Assembly: GCF_010994095.1 (NCBI RefSeq)
Contig: NZ_WJYO01000001.1
Span: 434,001-498,000, forward strand
Direction: 5' to 3'
DNA: 64,000 bases
From: Mumia xiangluensis
GTDB taxonomy: Bacteria; Actinomycetota; Actinomycetes; Propionibacteriales; Nocardioidaceae
The position numbers and the translations under genes are program-made. The notes under the pieces were generated by a model. It saw nothing but the letters and a program-made list of their open reading frames with translations, searched no databases and was not told the DNA's origin. This document shows positions 7,665-40,947 of this stretch, piece by piece (position 1 is the first letter of the stretch; the number at the start of each line of letters is the position of its first letter).

Positions 7665-8246
7665 ATGGGAGACGACTCGCGGCACGAGCACCCTCACGGC
7701 ACCATCGCCGGACCACGCGACGACGACTTCGTCGAGCGCTGGTCGTACGGGAATCCGGAGGCGCCGATCACCATCGTGGAGTTCGGCGACTTCGAGTGCC
7801 CGTACTGCGGCGCGGCGAAGCCGGTGCTCCACGACCTGATCGAAGGGTCGGACGGCCAGGTGCGTCTGGTCTGGCGGCACTTCCCGCTGTTCACTGTCCA
7901 CCCGTTCGCGCTCACCGCGGCGCTCGCGGCGGAGGCAGCCGGCCACCAGGGCGCGTTCTGGCCGATGGCGGGCCTGATGTTCAAGCACCAGGACCACCTC
8001 GACGACGCGTCCCTCGTCCGCTACGGCGAGCAGCTCGACCTCGACACGACCAAGCTGGTCGGCGACGCGGCGCAGAAGTACGCCGACGCGGTGCGGACCG
8101 ACTACCAGGACGGGATCGACGCCGGGGTGCACGGCACGCCGACGCTGTTCATCGACGGTGAGCCGTACACCGACGGCGTCAACGTGCGCGACCTGCGCGC
8201 CGCGATCGGGCTGTCACGCCGGGGCGCGCCACGGCCCGGTCGGTAG
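7665..8246 (+). CDS. DsbA-like thioredoxin-fold protein
   Basis: A 193-residue DsbA-family protein with the motif FGDFECPYCGAAKPVL near residue 40 (CPYC redox pair) and the cis-proline loop HGTPTLFIDG near residue 163. There is no signal peptide or membrane anchor, so it is probably cytoplasmic. Its sequence (RHFPLFTVHPFA, AAEAAGHQGAFW, LDLDT) closely resembles the domain fused to the C-terminus of some actinobacterial NhaA antiporters. Here it is a separate gene converging on nhaA, with 33 bp overlap. The ATG has CACGAT exactly 6 nt upstream and no ribosome site, suggesting a leaderless mRNA. Confidence 0.85.
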   Translation: MGDDSRHEHPHGTIAGPRDDDFVERWSYGNPEAPITIVEFGDFECPYCGAAKPVLHDLIEGSDGQVRLVWRHFPLFTVHPFALTAALAAEAAGHQGAFWPMAGLMFKHQDHLDDASLVRYGEQLDLDTTKLVGDAAQKYADAVRTDYQDGIDAGVHGTPTLFIDGEPYTDGVNVRDLRAAIGLSRRGAPRPGR

Positions 8247-9614
8247 CGGCGGCGGCCCTTCGTCCTCGTCGGCCGAGCACAGCGGCATCCGGTCGCCGAA
8301 GTAGCGCAGCACGACGGCGCCGATCACGGCCGACACCAGCGAGCCCACGAGGATGCCGATCTTGGCCTCGTCGCGCAGCAGCTCGTCGTCGAAGGCGAGG
8401 TCGCTGACGAAGAGGGCGATCGTGAACCCGATGCCGCAGAGGAACGCGCCGCCGACGAGGTGGCCGTACCGCACCTGGCCGGGCAGCCGACCGAGTCCCG
8501 TCTGCAGGGCGATCGCCGCGCCGGCGACGACGCCCACCGCCTTGCCGACGACCAGGCCGAGCACGACGCCCCACAGGATCGGGCTCGAGAAGGCCTCGCC
8601 CACAGCGCCGCCCGTGAGCACCACGCCGGCGTTGGCGAGACCGAACAGCGGGACGATCACGTACGAGCTGAGCGGGTGCAGCGCGTCCAGGACCCGGTCG
8701 CTCGTCGGGATCGCGGAGCGGGCGGCGTTGACCGCCAGCCGAGAGCGCGACGAGTCGAGCTCCTCGATCAGCGCCCGCCCGTAGAAGCCGAGGTATCGGC
8801 GGGTCTCGTCGTCGTGACCCCGGCGCCGGGTCGGGACCGACAGCCCGACGGCGACGCCCGCCAGCGTCGGGTGCAGGCCCGACTCGAGCACCGCGACCCA
8901 GAGGACGGCACCGGCCAGGAGGTACGGCGTGATCTGCCAGACCCCGATCCAGCGCATCACGAACAGCGCCACGATCAGCACGCCGGCGAGGACGAGCGCC
9001 TTCATCGAGACGTCGTCGGAGTAGAAGATGCCGAGGAGAGCGATGGCGCCGATGTCGTCGAAGATCGCGAGCGTCAGCAGGAAGACGCGCAGCTGGTCGG
9101 GGCAACGCGGTCCGACCAGGGCGAGGACCCCGATGACGAACGCGGTGTCGGTCGACATCGGGACGCCCCAGCCGGCGGCGTCGGGTCCCGACGGGTTGAT
9201 CAGGAGATAGAGCCCGATCGGTACGGCGAGGCCGCCGATCGCCCCGAACAGCGGAACCGACGCGGCACGGAACGACCGCAGCTCGCCGACGGTCAGCTCC
9301 CGGTTCACCTCGACACCGACGACGAGGAAGAAGATCGCCATCAGCCCGTCGTTGACCCAGTGGTGCAGGCTGAGGTGCAGGCTCCAGTCCCCCACCTCGA
9401 GTGAGGTCGGCGTCTCCCAGAAGTGGTGGTACGAGCCCTGGGCTACGTTCGCCCAGATCAACGCCGAGGCGGCGGCCAGCAGCAGGATCGTCGCGCCACC
9501 GCCCTCGGTCGCGAAGTACCGCCTGAGGCCGGGCGACAGCCGCGGGTACGGGACGACGACGCGTGGGCGCGGACCGGGCCTGGTCGGCACGCCGGTGGGG
9601 ATCGGGTCGGTCAC
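8214..9614 (-). CDS. nhaA: Na+/H+ antiporter NhaA
   Basis: A 466-residue, roughly 12-helix membrane protein. The NhaA signatures are present: STDTAFVIGVLAL near residue 153 (aspartate equivalent to E. coli D133), TLAIFDDIGAIALL near residue 182 (the ion-binding aspartate pair D163/D164) and GKAVGV (the conserved lysine region near K300). It exchanges cytoplasmic sodium for external protons, serving pH and salt homeostasis. The start is GTG 9614. A convergent DsbA-like gene, homologous to a domain fused to NhaA in relatives, overlaps its 3' end. Confidence 0.94.
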   Translation of the reverse strand: MTDPIPTGVPTRPGPRPRVVVPYPRLSPGLRRYFATEGGGATILLLAAASALIWANVAQGSYHHFWETPTSLEVGDWSLHLSLHHWVNDGLMAIFFLVVGVEVNRELTVGELRSFRAASVPLFGAIGGLAVPIGLYLLINPSGPDAAGWGVPMSTDTAFVIGVLALVGPRCPDQLRVFLLTLAIFDDIGAIALLGIFYSDDVSMKALVLAGVLIVALFVMRWIGVWQITPYLLAGAVLWVAVLESGLHPTLAGVAVGLSVPTRRRGHDDETRRYLGFYGRALIEELDSSRSRLAVNAARSAIPTSDRVLDALHPLSSYVIVPLFGLANAGVVLTGGAVGEAFSSPILWGVVLGLVVGKAVGVVAGAAIALQTGLGRLPGQVRYGHLVGGAFLCGIGFTIALFVSDLAFDDELLRDEAKIGILVGSLVSAVIGAVVLRYFGDRMPLCSADEDEGPPPLPTGPWRAPA

Positions 9615-35971: not shown

Positions 35972-37408
35972 TCAGGTGGCCGGGGTGTCGTACGGGATGC
36001 GGACCGTGAAGCGCGTGCTTCCTGGCTCCGACTCCACCCGGAGGTCGCCGTGGTGCTTGCGGACGACGATGCGCCACGAGATGTCGAGACCGAGCCCCGT
36101 CCCCTCACCAACCGCCTTCGTCGTGAAGAACGGCTCGAAGATCCGGTCCCGGATGTCGGGCGCGATCCCGGGACCGGTGTCGCCGATCTCGACCTCGCAC
36201 CAGTCCTCGACGCGCCGCGTGGTGATCGTGAGCGTGCCCGACCCCTCCATGGCCTGCACGGCGTTGACGATCAGGTTGGTCCACACCTGGTTCATCTCCG
36301 CCGCGTACATCGGCACCTCCGCGATGCTCCGGTCGTACTCCTTCACGACCTGCAGACCCGTCAGCTTCTTCTGCAGCATGACGAGCGTGGCGTCGAGCAG
36401 CGTGTGCACGTCGGTGCGTACGAACGGCGCACGGTCGAGCTGCGAGTACTGCTTGGCGGCGTCGACCAGCGTCGAGACCCGGGTGGTCGCGTCCTCGATC
36501 TCGGCCATCAGCTCCTCGGTCTCGAGGGTGTACGAGAGCCAGTGCAGCGCACCTCCGAGGGCGTCGGCGTCGACCCGGTCCTCGACGCTGCGCAGCCACT
36601 CCTCGTCGAGTCCGCTCTGGACGAGCACCGGCGCGACGTCCCAGGCATCGGTGAGTCCGTGCTCGTCGAGCCAGTCGGCGATCCGGTCCTCGCGGTCGGT
36701 GGCCTCGAGCGCGCCCACGGGCTCCTGCTGCAGGGCCTTCGCCCGACGCTCGAGCGCCTCGTCCTGCAACCGCATGAGTGCGGCGATCGTCGCGCGGTCG
36801 TACGGGCCCTCGGCGATGAAGGCGAGCTTGCGCCGCATCGCCGCCACCCGCTCCCGCAGCGTCGACGTGGCACGCACCGCCGCCGACGCCGGATTGTTGA
36901 GCTCGTGGGTGAGCCCGGCCGACAGCTGCCCCAGGGCCTGGAGCCGCTCGCGCTGGCCGATCGCGGCCTGCGTGTTCTGCTGCCCGAAGAACAGGCCTTC
37001 GAGCAGGTGCACCGCCATGGGGAACCAGTCGTGCATGAGGGTCGAGAAGTCGGCAGCGTCGATGACGAAGAACCGCGACGGGGCGAGCACGCGGGTGGAA
37101 CCGCCGTACCCCTGGGGGGCGCGGTCACCGAGGTACGCCGACCACGCACCGGTGTACACACCCGGCTGCGTCGTGCGCGAGACCTCGACGTCGTCCCCGC
37201 CGACGGTGCGGAAGAGCGCGACCGACCCCTCGAGCATCACGTAGAAGCACGTGGCCGGGTCGCCTTCCCGGACCAGCCACCCGGGCTCGACCTGCTCCAC
37301 GTGCCCGTGCTCGCACAGCCACACCAGCTGCCAGTCCTCGAGCCGCTCGAACAGGAACATCGTGCGCAGCTCGGCGATGTCGCACGGGAGGTGTCCGGGC
37401 GTACTCAC
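35972..37408 (-). CDS. Sensor histidine kinase with N-terminal cyclic-nucleotide-binding domain
   Basis: A 478-residue soluble kinase. Residues about 15-130 form a cNMP-binding/Crp-like jelly roll (VEPGWLVREGDPATCFYVMLEGSVALFR). The H-box ALGQLSAGLTHELNNPASA near residue 160 carries the phospho-accepting histidine, and the HATPase domain has N-box MNQVWTNLIVNAVQAM near 375 and G-boxes GDTGPGIAPDIRD and GEGTGLGL. No membrane helices are seen, so it senses a cytoplasmic signal. The GTG start overlaps the stop of the upstream response-regulator/reductase gene (GTGA), and that protein is the obvious partner. Confidence 0.9.
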   Translation of the reverse strand: MSTPGHLPCDIAELRTMFLFERLEDWQLVWLCEHGHVEQVEPGWLVREGDPATCFYVMLEGSVALFRTVGGDDVEVSRTTQPGVYTGAWSAYLGDRAPQGYGGSTRVLAPSRFFVIDAADFSTLMHDWFPMAVHLLEGLFFGQQNTQAAIGQRERLQALGQLSAGLTHELNNPASAAVRATSTLRERVAAMRRKLAFIAEGPYDRATIAALMRLQDEALERRAKALQQEPVGALEATDREDRIADWLDEHGLTDAWDVAPVLVQSGLDEEWLRSVEDRVDADALGGALHWLSYTLETEELMAEIEDATTRVSTLVDAAKQYSQLDRAPFVRTDVHTLLDATLVMLQKKLTGLQVVKEYDRSIAEVPMYAAEMNQVWTNLIVNAVQAMEGSGTLTITTRRVEDWCEVEIGDTGPGIAPDIRDRIFEPFFTTKAVGEGTGLGLDISWRIVVRKHHGDLRVESEPGSTRFTVRIPYDTPAT

Positions 37409-39093
37409 AGCTGCTCCAGATAACGGTGCACCAGCATCACGGCCATCGCTCCTTCTCCCACGGCGGAGGCGACGCGCTTCGCCGACTCCGCGCGGACGTC
37501 GCCGGCCACGAAGACGCCGGGGACGCTGCTCTCGAGGTGGTACGGCATCCGGTCGAGGGTCCAGCCCGGCGGCCTCGCGCCGTCCTCGACGAGATCCGGC
37601 CCGGTGGGGACGAACCCGTGCGGGTCGCGTACGACGACGCCGTCGAGCCACTCGGTGCCTGGCACGGCGCCGATGAAGACGAACGCCCACCCGCACGCGA
37701 CCGTCGTCGTCTCGCCGGTCTTCACGTCGCGCAGGACCAGACCCTCGAGGTGGCCGTCGCCACACCCCTCCGCGACCTCCGTCGAGGTCATCACGCGGAT
37801 CCGCGGGTGCGCCTCGACCTGGTCGACGAGGTAGGCCGACATCGACTGTGCGAGCGACGGCCCACGGACGAGCAGGGTGACGCTGCGAGCCTCGCGCGCC
37901 AGCGCGATCGCTGCCTGGCCGGCGGAGTTCGCGCCGCCGACGACGTACACGTCCTGGTCGGAGCACGCGTTCACGTTGGTGAGCGCCGAGCCGTAGTAGA
38001 GACCACGCCCGCTCATGTCGTCGAGGCGCGGCCCGTCGAGGCGCCGGTACGCGACACCTCCCGCGAGGATCACCGTCTGCGCGTCGAGGCTGCTCCCGTC
38101 GGCGAAGCGTACGCTCCGCGCGGAGCCGTTGATCTCCAGGCCGACGGCGTCTCGGGTCGTGACGATCTCGGCACCGAACTTCAGCGCCTGCCGCCGCGCC
38201 CGGTCCGCGAGCTGGGCGCCCGAGACCCCGTCGGGGAACCCGAGGTAGTTCTCGATCCGCGAGCTCTGCCCGGCCTGCCCGCCGGTCGCGGTGCGCTCGA
38301 CCAGCACCGTCCGCAGACCTTCGGACGCGCCGTACAGCGCGGCGCTCAGGCCGGCCGGACCACCGCCGACGACGACGAGGTCGTAGAAGTCGGAGCTCGG
38401 CTGCGTCACCAGGCCCACCCGGTCGGCGATCTCCGCGTCGCTCGGCGCCTCGAGCACGTCGCCGGCCGGCGTGACGACCACCGGCAGCTCGGGGCTCTCG
38501 AGCTCGGCAGCGGCCACGAGCGCGCGACCCTCGGACGAGTCGGAGGCGAACCAGCGGTACGGGACCTGGTTGCGTGCGAGGAACTCGCGCACCTCCGACG
38601 AGCGGGCCGACCACCGGTGCCCGATCAGCTTGGTCTCGCCGACCGGGTGCCGTTCGCTGCGCGCCCACGCGGCGAGCTGGTCGTCGACCACCGGGTAGAG
38701 CTTCTCGTCCGGCGGGTCCCACGGCTTCAGCAGGTAGTAGTCGAGGTCGACCAGGTTGATCGCGTCGATCGCGGCCTCGGTGTCGGCGTACGCCGTCACG
38801 AGGACGCGACGCGCCGCCGGGAAGAGGTCCATAGCCTGCTCCAGGAACTCGATCCCCGTCATCCGCGGCATCCGGTGGTCGGCCAGCAGGACGGCGACCT
38901 CCTCGCCCCGCAGCTTCAGCTCACGGAGCGCTTCGAGCGCCTGGTCGCCGGACTCGGCGCGCACGATCCGGTGCGTCGAGCCGTACCGGCGACGCAGGTC
39001 CCGCGCGATCGAGCGCGAGACCGCAGGGTCGTCGTCGACTGTCAGCAGCGCCGGGCGCTGATCGTCTCCCCGGCGAGAGGACGTGTCCGTCAT
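37405..39093 (-). CDS. Response regulator fused to thioredoxin-reductase-like flavoprotein
   Basis: A 562-residue three-part protein. Residues about 12-135 are a receiver domain with the acidic pair in TVDDDPAV, the phospho-acceptor aspartate in LLADHRMPRMTG near residue 71 and the lysine in YLLKPW. Residues about 150-232 resemble a glutaredoxin fold, but the active-site cysteines are absent (WSARSSEV where CxxC is expected). Residues about 237-562 are a thioredoxin-reductase fold with FAD motif DLVVVGGGPAGLSAALYGA and NAD motif DVYVVGGANSAGQAA, but the redox CxxC is replaced by NACSDQD. It may therefore be a redox- or NAD(P)H-sensing output rather than a true thioredoxin reductase. It is translationally coupled to the cNMP-domain kinase. 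Confidence 0.9.
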   Translation of the reverse strand: MTDTSSRRGDDQRPALLTVDDDPAVSRSIARDLRRRYGSTHRIVRAESGDQALEALRELKLRGEEVAVLLADHRMPRMTGIEFLEQAMDLFPAARRVLVTAYADTEAAIDAINLVDLDYYLLKPWDPPDEKLYPVVDDQLAAWARSERHPVGETKLIGHRWSARSSEVREFLARNQVPYRWFASDSSEGRALVAAAELESPELPVVVTPAGDVLEAPSDAEIADRVGLVTQPSSDFYDLVVVGGGPAGLSAALYGASEGLRTVLVERTATGGQAGQSSRIENYLGFPDGVSGAQLADRARRQALKFGAEIVTTRDAVGLEINGSARSVRFADGSSLDAQTVILAGGVAYRRLDGPRLDDMSGRGLYYGSALTNVNACSDQDVYVVGGANSAGQAAIALAREARSVTLLVRGPSLAQSMSAYLVDQVEAHPRIRVMTSTEVAEGCGDGHLEGLVLRDVKTGETTTVACGWAFVFIGAVPGTEWLDGVVVRDPHGFVPTGPDLVEDGARPPGWTLDRMPYHLESSVPGVFVAGDVRAESAKRVASAVGEGAMAVMLVHRYLEQL

Positions 39094-39171: not shown

Positions 39172-40947
39172 TCACTCGGGATCGCCGGGAAGGGGTCTCG
39201 CCTTGAGCTCGAGGCTGATCTGATCGGCGTCGAGCATCCGCAACGCCTCGGACAGCGCTGCGGAGCTGTAGGTCCCCAGCGAGCGTGCGCGCAGGAGCGC
39301 GCGTCGTTCGGCCTCGAGCGTGCGCAGGCGCAGCTCCAGCATGTGCGCCCGCACCGTTGCCGTCTCGGTCGAGTCCTCCTCCTCACGGTCGATCTCGCGC
39401 CGCATGCGCTCGGTCGCCAGCCGAAGCACCTCGGCGTCGTACGGCGTGCCGTCGCTCGCCCGCAGGTCGGGCTTCTCGAGGAGCGCGACCGCCGCGCGGT
39501 TGAGCTCGGCCCGCAGCTGGGCCGCCTCCGCCGCCTCGCCCTCGTCGTCGTGGGCGAGGCCGAGGACGCGCACCACCCACGGGAGGGTGCCGCCCTGCAC
39601 CAGCAGCGTCCCTGCCGCCACCACGAATGCGATCAGGATGAGGAACGAGCGTTCGGGAGTGTCCTGCGGGAGCGACTGGGCCGCCGCCAGCGTCACGACG
39701 CCCCGCATGCCCGCCCAGACGAGCACGACGCCTTCCCGCCAGCCGAGCGGCACGGCCATCACGTAGTCGACGTCGGCCAGCAGCTGACGGATCCGCCGGC
39801 GTACGCGCTGCTCGTGCTCGGCGTCGCGCTGCTGCGCCCGAGGGTCGTCGGAGGATCGCTGGCGTCCGTGGCCCCTGCCGGGCCGCTCGGGGATGTTGCC
39901 CGCGTCGAGCTGGTCCTGCATCCCGGCGATCAGCTCACGCCGCTCGGGTGCCCTGCGCCGTCGGTTGCGCGCCGAGATCAGCAGCGGCAGCACGTACACC
40001 GCGCGGATCACCAGGATCATCGCGCCCGTGGCGACCCCGATGAGCAGCGCCCGCACCGTGCTGTCGTGCGCGTCGCGGACGTCCTCCAGCACGCCGTACA
40101 GCTCGAGCCCCATGAGCAGGAAGACGCCGCCTTCGAGGAGCAGCTCGATCGTCCGCCAGTTCGACGCCTCGTACATGCGGTCCTGGGGACGGAGGAACTT
40201 CGCGGAGCCCTGCCCTGTGACCAGACCCGCGGTGACCGCGGCGACGAGACCGGACGCTCCGAGGTGCTCGGCGGGGACGTACGCGACGAACGGGACGACG
40301 AACGAGATCGCGGTGCTGAGCGAGGGTTCGGCGATGCGTTTGCGCAGGATGAGGTTGATCCGTCCGATGATCGCCCCGATCACCGCCGCCGCGACGACCG
40401 CCCACACGAAGTCCAGGGCGACACCCCACAGCGTGACCGATGCGGCGGTGGCCACGATGGCCGAGCGCAGCAGCACCAGGGCCGAGGCGTCGTTGAGCAT
40501 GCTCTCGCCCTCGAGCACCGTGACGACCCGGGGCGACACTCCGAGGCGCTTGACGATCGACGTGGCGACGGCGTCGGTCGGGCTGACGATCGCGCCGAGC
40601 GCGATCCCGGTCGACAGCTCGATCCCCGGCACGACGGCGGTGAAGAACAGGCCGAGCAGCAGCGCACTGATGAGCACGAGCAGCACAGACAGTCCCGAGA
40701 TCGCCGTGAAGTCGCGACGGAAGTCCATCGTCGGCATCGACACGGCCGCCGAGTAGAGCAACGGCGGGAGCACGCCCGCCAGCACCAGCTCAGGGTCGAT
40801 CTCGATCGGCGGCACGACCGGCAGCAGGCTGATGGCGAACCCGAACAGGACGAGCAGGAGCGGCGCGGCCACGCCGATGCGCGGTGCGATCACCGTGACC
40901 CCGACGATGGCGACGATCGCCGCGATGCCGACGAGCAGGTAGTCCAT
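39172..40947 (-). CDS. CPA1-family Na+/H+ antiporter
   Basis: A 591-residue protein with about 12 membrane helices (residues 1-420, with a hydrophilic loop at about 325-390) and a charged cytoplasmic tail of about 130 residues. GAIVSPTDAVATSIVKRLGV near residue 118 and GESMLNDASALVLL near 147 hold the ion-binding acidic residues of the NhaP-like CPA1 group. It exchanges monovalent cations for protons. The start at ATG 40947 has a GGAGGAGGG ribosome site. It ends 79 bp before the response-regulator gene start, so it could share transcription with that module. Confidence 0.9.
   Translation of the reverse strand: MDYLLVGIAAIVAIVGVTVIAPRIGVAAPLLLVLFGFAISLLPVVPPIEIDPELVLAGVLPPLLYSAAVSMPTMDFRRDFTAISGLSVLLVLISALLLGLFFTAVVPGIELSTGIALGAIVSPTDAVATSIVKRLGVSPRVVTVLEGESMLNDASALVLLRSAIVATAASVTLWGVALDFVWAVVAAAVIGAIIGRINLILRKRIAEPSLSTAISFVVPFVAYVPAEHLGASGLVAAVTAGLVTGQGSAKFLRPQDRMYEASNWRTIELLLEGGVFLLMGLELYGVLEDVRDAHDSTVRALLIGVATGAMILVIRAVYVLPLLISARNRRRRAPERRELIAGMQDQLDAGNIPERPGRGHGRQRSSDDPRAQQRDAEHEQRVRRRIRQLLADVDYVMAVPLGWREGVVLVWAGMRGVVTLAAAQSLPQDTPERSFLILIAFVVAAGTLLVQGGTLPWVVRVLGLAHDDEGEAAEAAQLRAELNRAAVALLEKPDLRASDGTPYDAEVLRLATERMRREIDREEEDSTETATVRAHMLELRLRTLEAERRALLRARSLGTYSSAALSEALRMLDADQISLELKARPLPGDPE

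Follow-up and report, generated by a model that had tools for sequence, protein, structure and literature searches.

Response regulators with enzyme outputs are known in the CheB, PP2C, GGDEF and EAL types, and in thioredoxin reductase (TrxR) an HRRxxxR motif serves as the clamp for the 2'-phosphate of reduced nicotinamide adenine dinucleotide phosphate (NADPH). A true response regulator is defined by five conserved receiver residues (PMC12632262). TrxR-like ferredoxin-NADP reductases (FNRs) have no CxxC motif, and proteins receive the electrons that they take from NAD(P)H (PMC10294844). Here we describe a two-gene locus of the actinomycete Mumia xiangluensis (source genome of 4.6 Mb in 9 contigs), located in a stretch of 64,000 nucleotides of contig NZ_WJYO01000001.1 (positions 434,001 to 498,000; hereafter the window). 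Its first gene encodes a response regulator, P0001, in which a receiver is joined to a glutaredoxin-derived domain and a TrxR-fold flavoprotein unit, and its second gene encodes a histidine kinase with an N-terminal domain resembling a cyclic nucleotide-binding (CNB) domain (Table 1). If our reading is right, this is a two-component system with a flavoprotein oxidoreductase-fold output, from which disulphide chemistry has been removed with the cofactor motifs kept.

Results

Loss of both cysteine pairs from the flavoprotein

P0001 matches Pfam Response_reg (E 1.2e-13) and Pyr_redox_2 (E 9e-29), and its receiver carries the quintet of a true response regulator, namely D20, D21, D72, T100 and K123. 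A first-pass annotation of this DNA had described a normal receiver joined to glutaredoxin-like and TrxR folds, and both genes are indeed where it placed them; the phospho-acceptor, given there as Asp71, is Asp72. The identity of the middle domain follows from two relatives, L146 and L147, whose matching stretch is recognised as a Pfam glutaredoxin (PF00462; E 1.5e-10 and 3.9e-10). These relatives combine Pfam Glutaredoxin and Pyr_redox_2 matches, lack a receiver, carry CPDC or CGDC in the glutaredoxin and CATC in the TrxR part, and share 35% (L146) and 32% (L147) core identity with P0001. P0001 itself returned no Pfam glutaredoxin match at E<=1 and has no active-site cysteine there, so that the domain is glutaredoxin-derived and not a member of that family.

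Alignment to these CxxC-bearing relatives places S162-A-R-S165 at the glutaredoxin site and G368-S-A-L371 at the TrxR site, which agrees with the annotation on both replacements. The family-wide alignment that it had proposed was made with 190 distinct sequences including the window's own (4 of 232 profile matches were dropped, and removal of duplicates reduced 228 to 190; three partial blast rows had been dropped at an earlier stage), of which 171 have a receiver and 19 lack it or are cut. Throughout the TrxR active-site stretch, positions 364 to 373, no cysteine occurs in any of the 171 receiver-type sequences. Among the 131 receiver-type proteins termed kinase-linked (kinase profile score of at least 30 within 6 kb), serine is found at position 162 in 127 and at position 165 in 120, the latter position being Cys in 2. 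At the level of sequence, the loss of both CxxC sites is real and family-wide.

The further statement that redox cysteines are missing altogether holds for the two CxxC motifs but goes too far for the protein, as three cysteines remain (377, 444 and 467). C377 lies 6 residues beyond the lost CxxC; it is Cys in 124/131 kinase-linked rows and in 2/35 rows without a kinase (defined below), 30 of which have Met or Leu instead; in Deinococcus it is Val. An extra cysteine at 363, outside the motif, is present in 26 kinase-linked rows.

Probable pairing of kinase and receiver

Comparative sequence data support the two genes as a dedicated two-component pair, in which kinase and receiver evolve together. 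The kinase gene starts with GTG at 37408, overlapping the stop of the response regulator gene by 4 nt, and the open reading frame at 35972-38722 over-extends it (kinase residues are numbered from this GTG as 1; the numbering of P0002 is one higher). Among 138 loci that encode a receiver-type protein, 126 have the kinase gene immediately downstream on the same strand. Across 296 Actinomycetota genomes (flavoprotein family at E<=1e-60, kinase at E<=1e-40), the flavoprotein family is present in 70 and the kinase in 36, all of them within the 70 (Fisher p 4e-27, uncorrected for relatedness); at this threshold the flavoprotein family includes cNMP-type and some CxxC-bearing members (L146, L147).

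The receiver quintet is intact in 131/131 kinase-linked rows and in 0/35 kinase-less rows, the latter having more than 1.5 kb downstream and no kinase match in the fetched stretch (5 short-flank rows were excluded), and D72 alone in 131/131 and 17/35, respectively. Overlap, adjacency and quintet support the earlier view that the kinase is coupled to the flavoprotein. By the receiver definition of PMC12632262, the kinase-less rows are pseudo-receivers. A quick core tree was computed with L146, L147 and L004 (a TrxR-length relative from the window genome) as outgroup set, omitting the fragments L122, L219 and L252 as well as 82 of the 131 kinase-linked rows (49 kept, <78% identity). On this tree, the D72-less state is confined to rows in which no kinase was found (19/40), and the changes needed amount to 2 for the kinase label, 1 for the quintet and 11 for D72.

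The response regulator-type system has representatives in Actinomycetota, Deinococcota, Burkholderiales and cyanobacteria. Outside the phylum, four receiver-type records were opened (H35, H37, H38 and H39; H36 and H40 were left out), three of which have the kinase adjacent, i.e. Deinococcus aetherius, Caballeronia NK8 and Gloeothece PCC 7822 (kinase nature judged by eye). No kinase was found near the CxxC-bearing L146 and L147 in those two loci.

Flavin and nucleotide sites

Motifs for flavin adenine dinucleotide (FAD) are well kept in the kinase-linked rows (G.GPAGL in 125/131, GGQ in 131/131), as are those on the nucleotide side (GG.NSAGQA in 120/131, Arg410 in 130/131, MSxYL in 131/131). 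Compared with L004, P0001 retains the GGQ-type and C-terminal GD regions and ends at the same point in the sequence alignment, and the HRR of L004 is turned into V-R410-G/A, with a two-residue insertion and the MSxYL motif. Thus, of the claim that FAD and NAD motifs remain, the FAD motifs and GG.NSAGQA stand, but the HRR clamp is reduced to its first Arg. MSxYL is also present in 13/13 receiver-less rows and, save for one Thr in place of Ser, in 40/40 other receiver rows. TrxR-like FNRs are marked by a C-terminal helix carrying a residue that stacks on FAD; of the nine solved rows named ferredoxin-NADP reductase, seven can be aligned no further than profile position 474, short of the C-terminus. 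No chain spanning the receiver or glutaredoxin part plus the reductase part is among the 60 best solved chains listed.

The kinase and its sensor domain

In Crp, the phosphate-binding cassette comprises a Glu and an Arg preceding a conserved Ser. A Pfam scan of the window kinase, run on a 439-residue piece without the first 39 residues, gave HATPase_c (E 2e-24) and cNMP_binding, the latter just over its cut-off (31.5 vs 27.5 bits), with HisKA below its own (17.9 vs 26.9 bits). The phospho-acceptor His is present in 99/99 kinase rows and, together with HATPase_c, identifies the protein as a histidine kinase. The Crp-like cyclic-nucleotide domain of the annotation is retained as a Pfam match, but its cassette Glu is replaced by Ala in 88/99 kinases. 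No Arg stands directly ahead of the conserved Ser/Thr (register by eye), but an Arg is conserved nearby, two residues after that Ser in 83/99 and upstream in 71/99, so that the loss of the Arg half of the cassette is less sure.

With the canonical cassette Glu missing, a cyclic-nucleotide ligand was dropped and only the fold was kept. We consider it more likely that the sensor is CNB-like in fold and would read a redox or other signal rather than a cyclic nucleotide. Against a non-nucleotide signal speaks the best solved match of the sensor domain, 5j3u, named Protein Kinase A (E 2.5e-6); next comes DNR (2z69, E 1.4e-4), a haem-based NO sensor. All three sensor cysteines, C9, C32 and C54, are present in 69/99 kinases; 17 have C9 and C32 without C54, 7 have C54 alone, and 6 have none of them. 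The second kinase of the window genome (beside L002) lacks the three, and a cysteine signal is thus not universal. At five loci (L202, L203, L266, L267 and L268, from G168, G233, G264, G274 and G285), two or three tandem CNB-like kinases stand beside a single response regulator-TrxR gene.

Neighbouring genes

Table 1. Features of the locus and of further genes of interest in the window (positions of the window; aa, amino acids)
Feature	Position	Strand	Remarks
Response regulator P0001, 562 aa	37405..39093	minus	receiver + glutaredoxin-derived domain + TrxR-fold flavoprotein
Receiver domain, ~aa 15-135	38689..39051	minus	Asp72 codon 38878-38880; D20, D21, T100, K123; Pfam Response_reg 17-128 and residues
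Glutaredoxin-derived domain, ~aa 150-232	38398..38646	minus	S162..S165 replaces CxxC; identified through its L146/L147 counterpart, a Pfam Glutaredoxin match
TrxR-fold FAD/NAD(P) unit, aa 237-562	37408..38385	minus	G368-SA-L371 replaces CATC; C377; MSxYL motif
Histidine kinase, 478 aa	35972..37408	minus	N-terminal CNB-like domain with C9, C32, C54; His168; HATPase
CPA1 Na+/H+ antiporter	39172..40947	minus	78 nt upstream of the response regulator gene, same strand
UBP-type zinc-finger protein, 116 aa	7203..7553	minus	sole match in window genome
DsbA-like thioredoxin-fold protein	7665..8246	plus	head-to-head with zinc-finger gene; possible, unproven associate

On the 3' side of the kinase gene, and no more than 500 nt from it, stands a gene for a UBP-type zinc-finger protein in 64 of 77 usable loci (80 were fetched; two with a short flank and one without kinase were excluded, and in L064 the zinc finger is on the other strand). 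The flavoprotein family is present in 48 of 68 zinc-finger genomes (p 2e-22); both figures overstate independence since many of the species are related. Some 'cNMP'-type sister proteins (see below) also adjoin such genes. In the window, the zinc-finger gene is 30 kb from the kinase gene. The zinc-finger protein is a likely partner.

The CPA1 antiporter does lie directly upstream, as had been pointed out, but its association with the pair is mainly a trait of the genus: CPA1 directly precedes the intact pair in 4/6 congeneric genomes and is found in few other genera. In congener G004, the pair is present but no CPA1 match is close by, and none was found beside the pair in the M. quercus locus L027. 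In congener G002 (L218, ~8454-8793), the pair is a deletion scar with receiver and kinase pieces and the upstream CPA1 match is full length; the response regulator-kinase module is dispensable in this congener. Outside the genus, L064, L166, L172, L196, L203 and L268 have CPA1 in the vicinity of either the pair or the zinc finger. Moreover, L194, L195, L197 and L198 are CPA1-type antiporters carrying a UBP-type zinc finger at the C-terminus (Pfam-confirmed for L194), and as three of these four fusions come from genomes without a flavoprotein match at E<=1e-60 (G046, G177 and G235), the zinc finger joins CPA1 and the pair by association only. As it was not found beside the M. quercus pair and in few loci outside the genus, CPA1 was rejected as a general member of the system.

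Upstream of the genes, a scan for DosR/DevR boxes gave no excess over shuffles. The 2.43 Mb of fetched loci contain 21 exact copies of the 14-mer CGAACATACGATGG, which includes a -10-like TACGAT; every copy stands a short way (~100 nt) ahead of a response regulator-TrxR gene, in 16 loci of named Streptomyces (L044, L047, L053 and others) and in L107 and L109-L112. This promoter-like motif of Streptomyces was not found in the window within 3 mismatches.

Relatives of the flavoprotein core

In the core tree, one branch holds 12 of 13 receiver-less CxxC-less rows (SH-aLRT 92) and another 89 receiver rows (91), with L145 and L255 pairing apart from both. The 13 receiver-less rows are labelled 'cNMP' as a group; a cNMP domain was confirmed by Pfam in both members scanned (L138 and L140) as well as in the Rhizobium protein L273, and 10/13 have a Crp-like FxGE stretch, in which the cassette Glu is kept and no Arg stands in the usual place (by eye). 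Receiver-less CxxC-less cores of 404 to 430 residues also exist in Gloeocapsa, Burkholderia and Paraburkholderia; cysteine loss is thus not tied to the receiver.

The window genome encodes two further response regulator-TrxR paralogues, L136 (6038-7699) and L137 (6616-8370), one with its own kinase (52% identical); in the other (43%) the receiver is altered, and no kinase was found for it. Two flavoprotein core matches, L274 and L283, stand next to genes for chaperones or heat stress: an unannotated one on a Rhodococcus opacus plasmid is preceded by trxA and adjoins dnaK and clpB, and one in Paraburkholderia dioscoreae adjoins Clp, Hsp20 and HdeD genes. In Gloeocapsa, thioredoxin and DsbA genes precede the core.

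NCBI lists one sister under 'cyclic nucleotide-binding domain-containing thioredoxin-disulfide reductase', a misleading name as no CxxC is present at its site, and in one Streptomyces record the three genes appear as 'FAD-dependent oxidoreductase', 'ATP-binding protein' and 'UBP-type zinc finger domain-containing protein'. A further NCBI name is 'Fused response regulator/thioredoxin-disulfide reductase'. Among the matches listed from a mainly open-access literature, no published study of the response regulator-type protein, the cNMP-type protein or a bacterial UBP zinc finger was found, and 'cyclic nucleotide' occurs 0 times in the available part of a review of Deinococcus thiol reductases (PMC8945050). 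The zinc-finger neighbour, the CxxC-bearing glutaredoxin-TrxR fusions, the cNMP-fused sisters, the kinase-less pseudo-receiver clade and the two paralogues all go beyond the first-pass annotation; of these, the relatives with CxxC, the sisters with a fused cNMP domain and the paralogues with a pseudo-receiver offer natural controls.

Discussion

We consider it moderately probable that this dedicated pair conducts phosphorylation-gated electron transfer from NAD(P)H through FAD to a non-disulphide acceptor, with the zinc-finger protein as the best candidate partner. The kinase would autophosphorylate at His168 and then phosphorylate Asp72 of the receiver, as co-occurrence and coevolution suggest, and the output, a homologue of glutaredoxin-TrxR fusions, would bind FAD and probably NAD(P)H. 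Since both disulphide sites are missing, the normal route for the reduction of thioredoxin or glutaredoxin would be closed to P0001. Instead, phosphorylation would most likely open or close electron transfer from NAD(P)H to the flavin and on to a non-disulphide acceptor, which is suggested by the kept motifs and by the precedent of CxxC-less TrxR-like FNRs.

Several observations weigh against this proposal. D72 persists in 17 of the 35 kinase-less rows. On the tree, the rows without a kinase are one clade of 38 plus L255 and L039 (short flank), so that the split of 131 versus 0/35 is far from 166 independent observations. In Nostoc edaphicum, the kinase is 2.6 kb off, beyond a transposase and a bestrophin gene, and its sensor part is receiver-like. 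Of the canonical HRR clamp, P0001 keeps R410 only, and NADPH binding may therefore be weak or absent. Finally, the conservation of C377 leaves a thiol role open, and a CxxC does occur elsewhere, near residue 430, in 2/131 kinase-linked sequences.

Possible, if rather doubtful, is that the flavoprotein acts as a sensor or scaffold, whose shape would be set by FAD/NAD(P)H occupancy together with receiver phosphorylation and which would bind the zinc finger or another target. Such a role would suit a protein that keeps its cofactor folds after losing both redox sites, that has MSxYL where the HRR clamp was and that is accompanied by a conserved zinc-finger neighbour, and likewise the kinase-less relatives, which retain the core as the receiver decays; however, the FAD motifs are conserved as highly as expected for an enzyme.

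It appears improbable that thiol chemistry persists by another route, with C377 or the cysteines of a partner (zinc finger, thioredoxin or DsbA-like protein) meeting the flavin directly. The near-invariance of C377 in kinase-linked rows would fit, as would the thioredoxin and DsbA genes ahead of the Gloeocapsa core, the trxA gene on the Rhodococcus opacus plasmid and the head-to-head DsbA-like gene of the window, but Met or Leu takes the place of C377 in 30/35 kinase-less relatives and Val in Deinococcus, and a distance of 6 residues from the lost second cysteine probably puts C377 too far along the helix. Very improbable, and rejected at sequence level, is the view of P0001 as a conventional thioredoxin reductase to which a receiver has been added: the NCBI name of the sister proteins and the best solved relatives, themselves thioredoxin reductases, would suggest it, but the active-site stretch is cysteine-free in all 171 sequences, the NCBIfam TRX_reduct score of P0001 (196.2 bits) stays below the equivalog cut-off of 343.45, and L004, a separate relative of TrxR length in the genome, has Cys-Ala-Thr at the site.

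Returning to the gated electron-transfer pair, one may speculate, as a long shot, on a novel type of cytosolic redox-homeostasis circuit in which C9, C32 and C54 would sense the redox state of thiols or a metal centre and phosphorylation would gate the disulphide-free flavoprotein, the zinc finger then relaying to targets including CPA1 and so linking NAD(P)H status to ion balance.

Comparison with known systems

With low-Mr thioredoxin reductase (TrxB), P0001 shares the FAD/NADPH fold, GGQ and the C-terminal GD regions, but it has no CxxC, carries R..SMSxYL in place of the HRR clamp and adds the N-terminal glutaredoxin-derived and receiver domains. The TrxR-like FNRs likewise show a TrxR fold without CxxC, and many of them were formerly annotated as TrxR (PMC10294844); P0001 differs by its added receiver and glutaredoxin-derived domains, and the FNR rows mostly stop at profile position 474. 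The glutaredoxin-TrxR fusions L146 and L147 have the same core, yet bear both CxxC motifs and no receiver or CNB domain, whereas the cyclic nucleotide-binding domain-containing sister proteins share the CxxC-less core and have a CNB-like domain fused in the receiver's place. AhpF, too, has a thioredoxin-fold part N-terminal to its TrxR unit (the chains 1hyu and 4o5q match along that unit), but it retains its cysteine pairs and lacks a receiver. As in the response regulators with enzyme outputs, the receiver would control an output that does not bind DNA, which in P0001 is a flavoprotein oxidoreductase fold.

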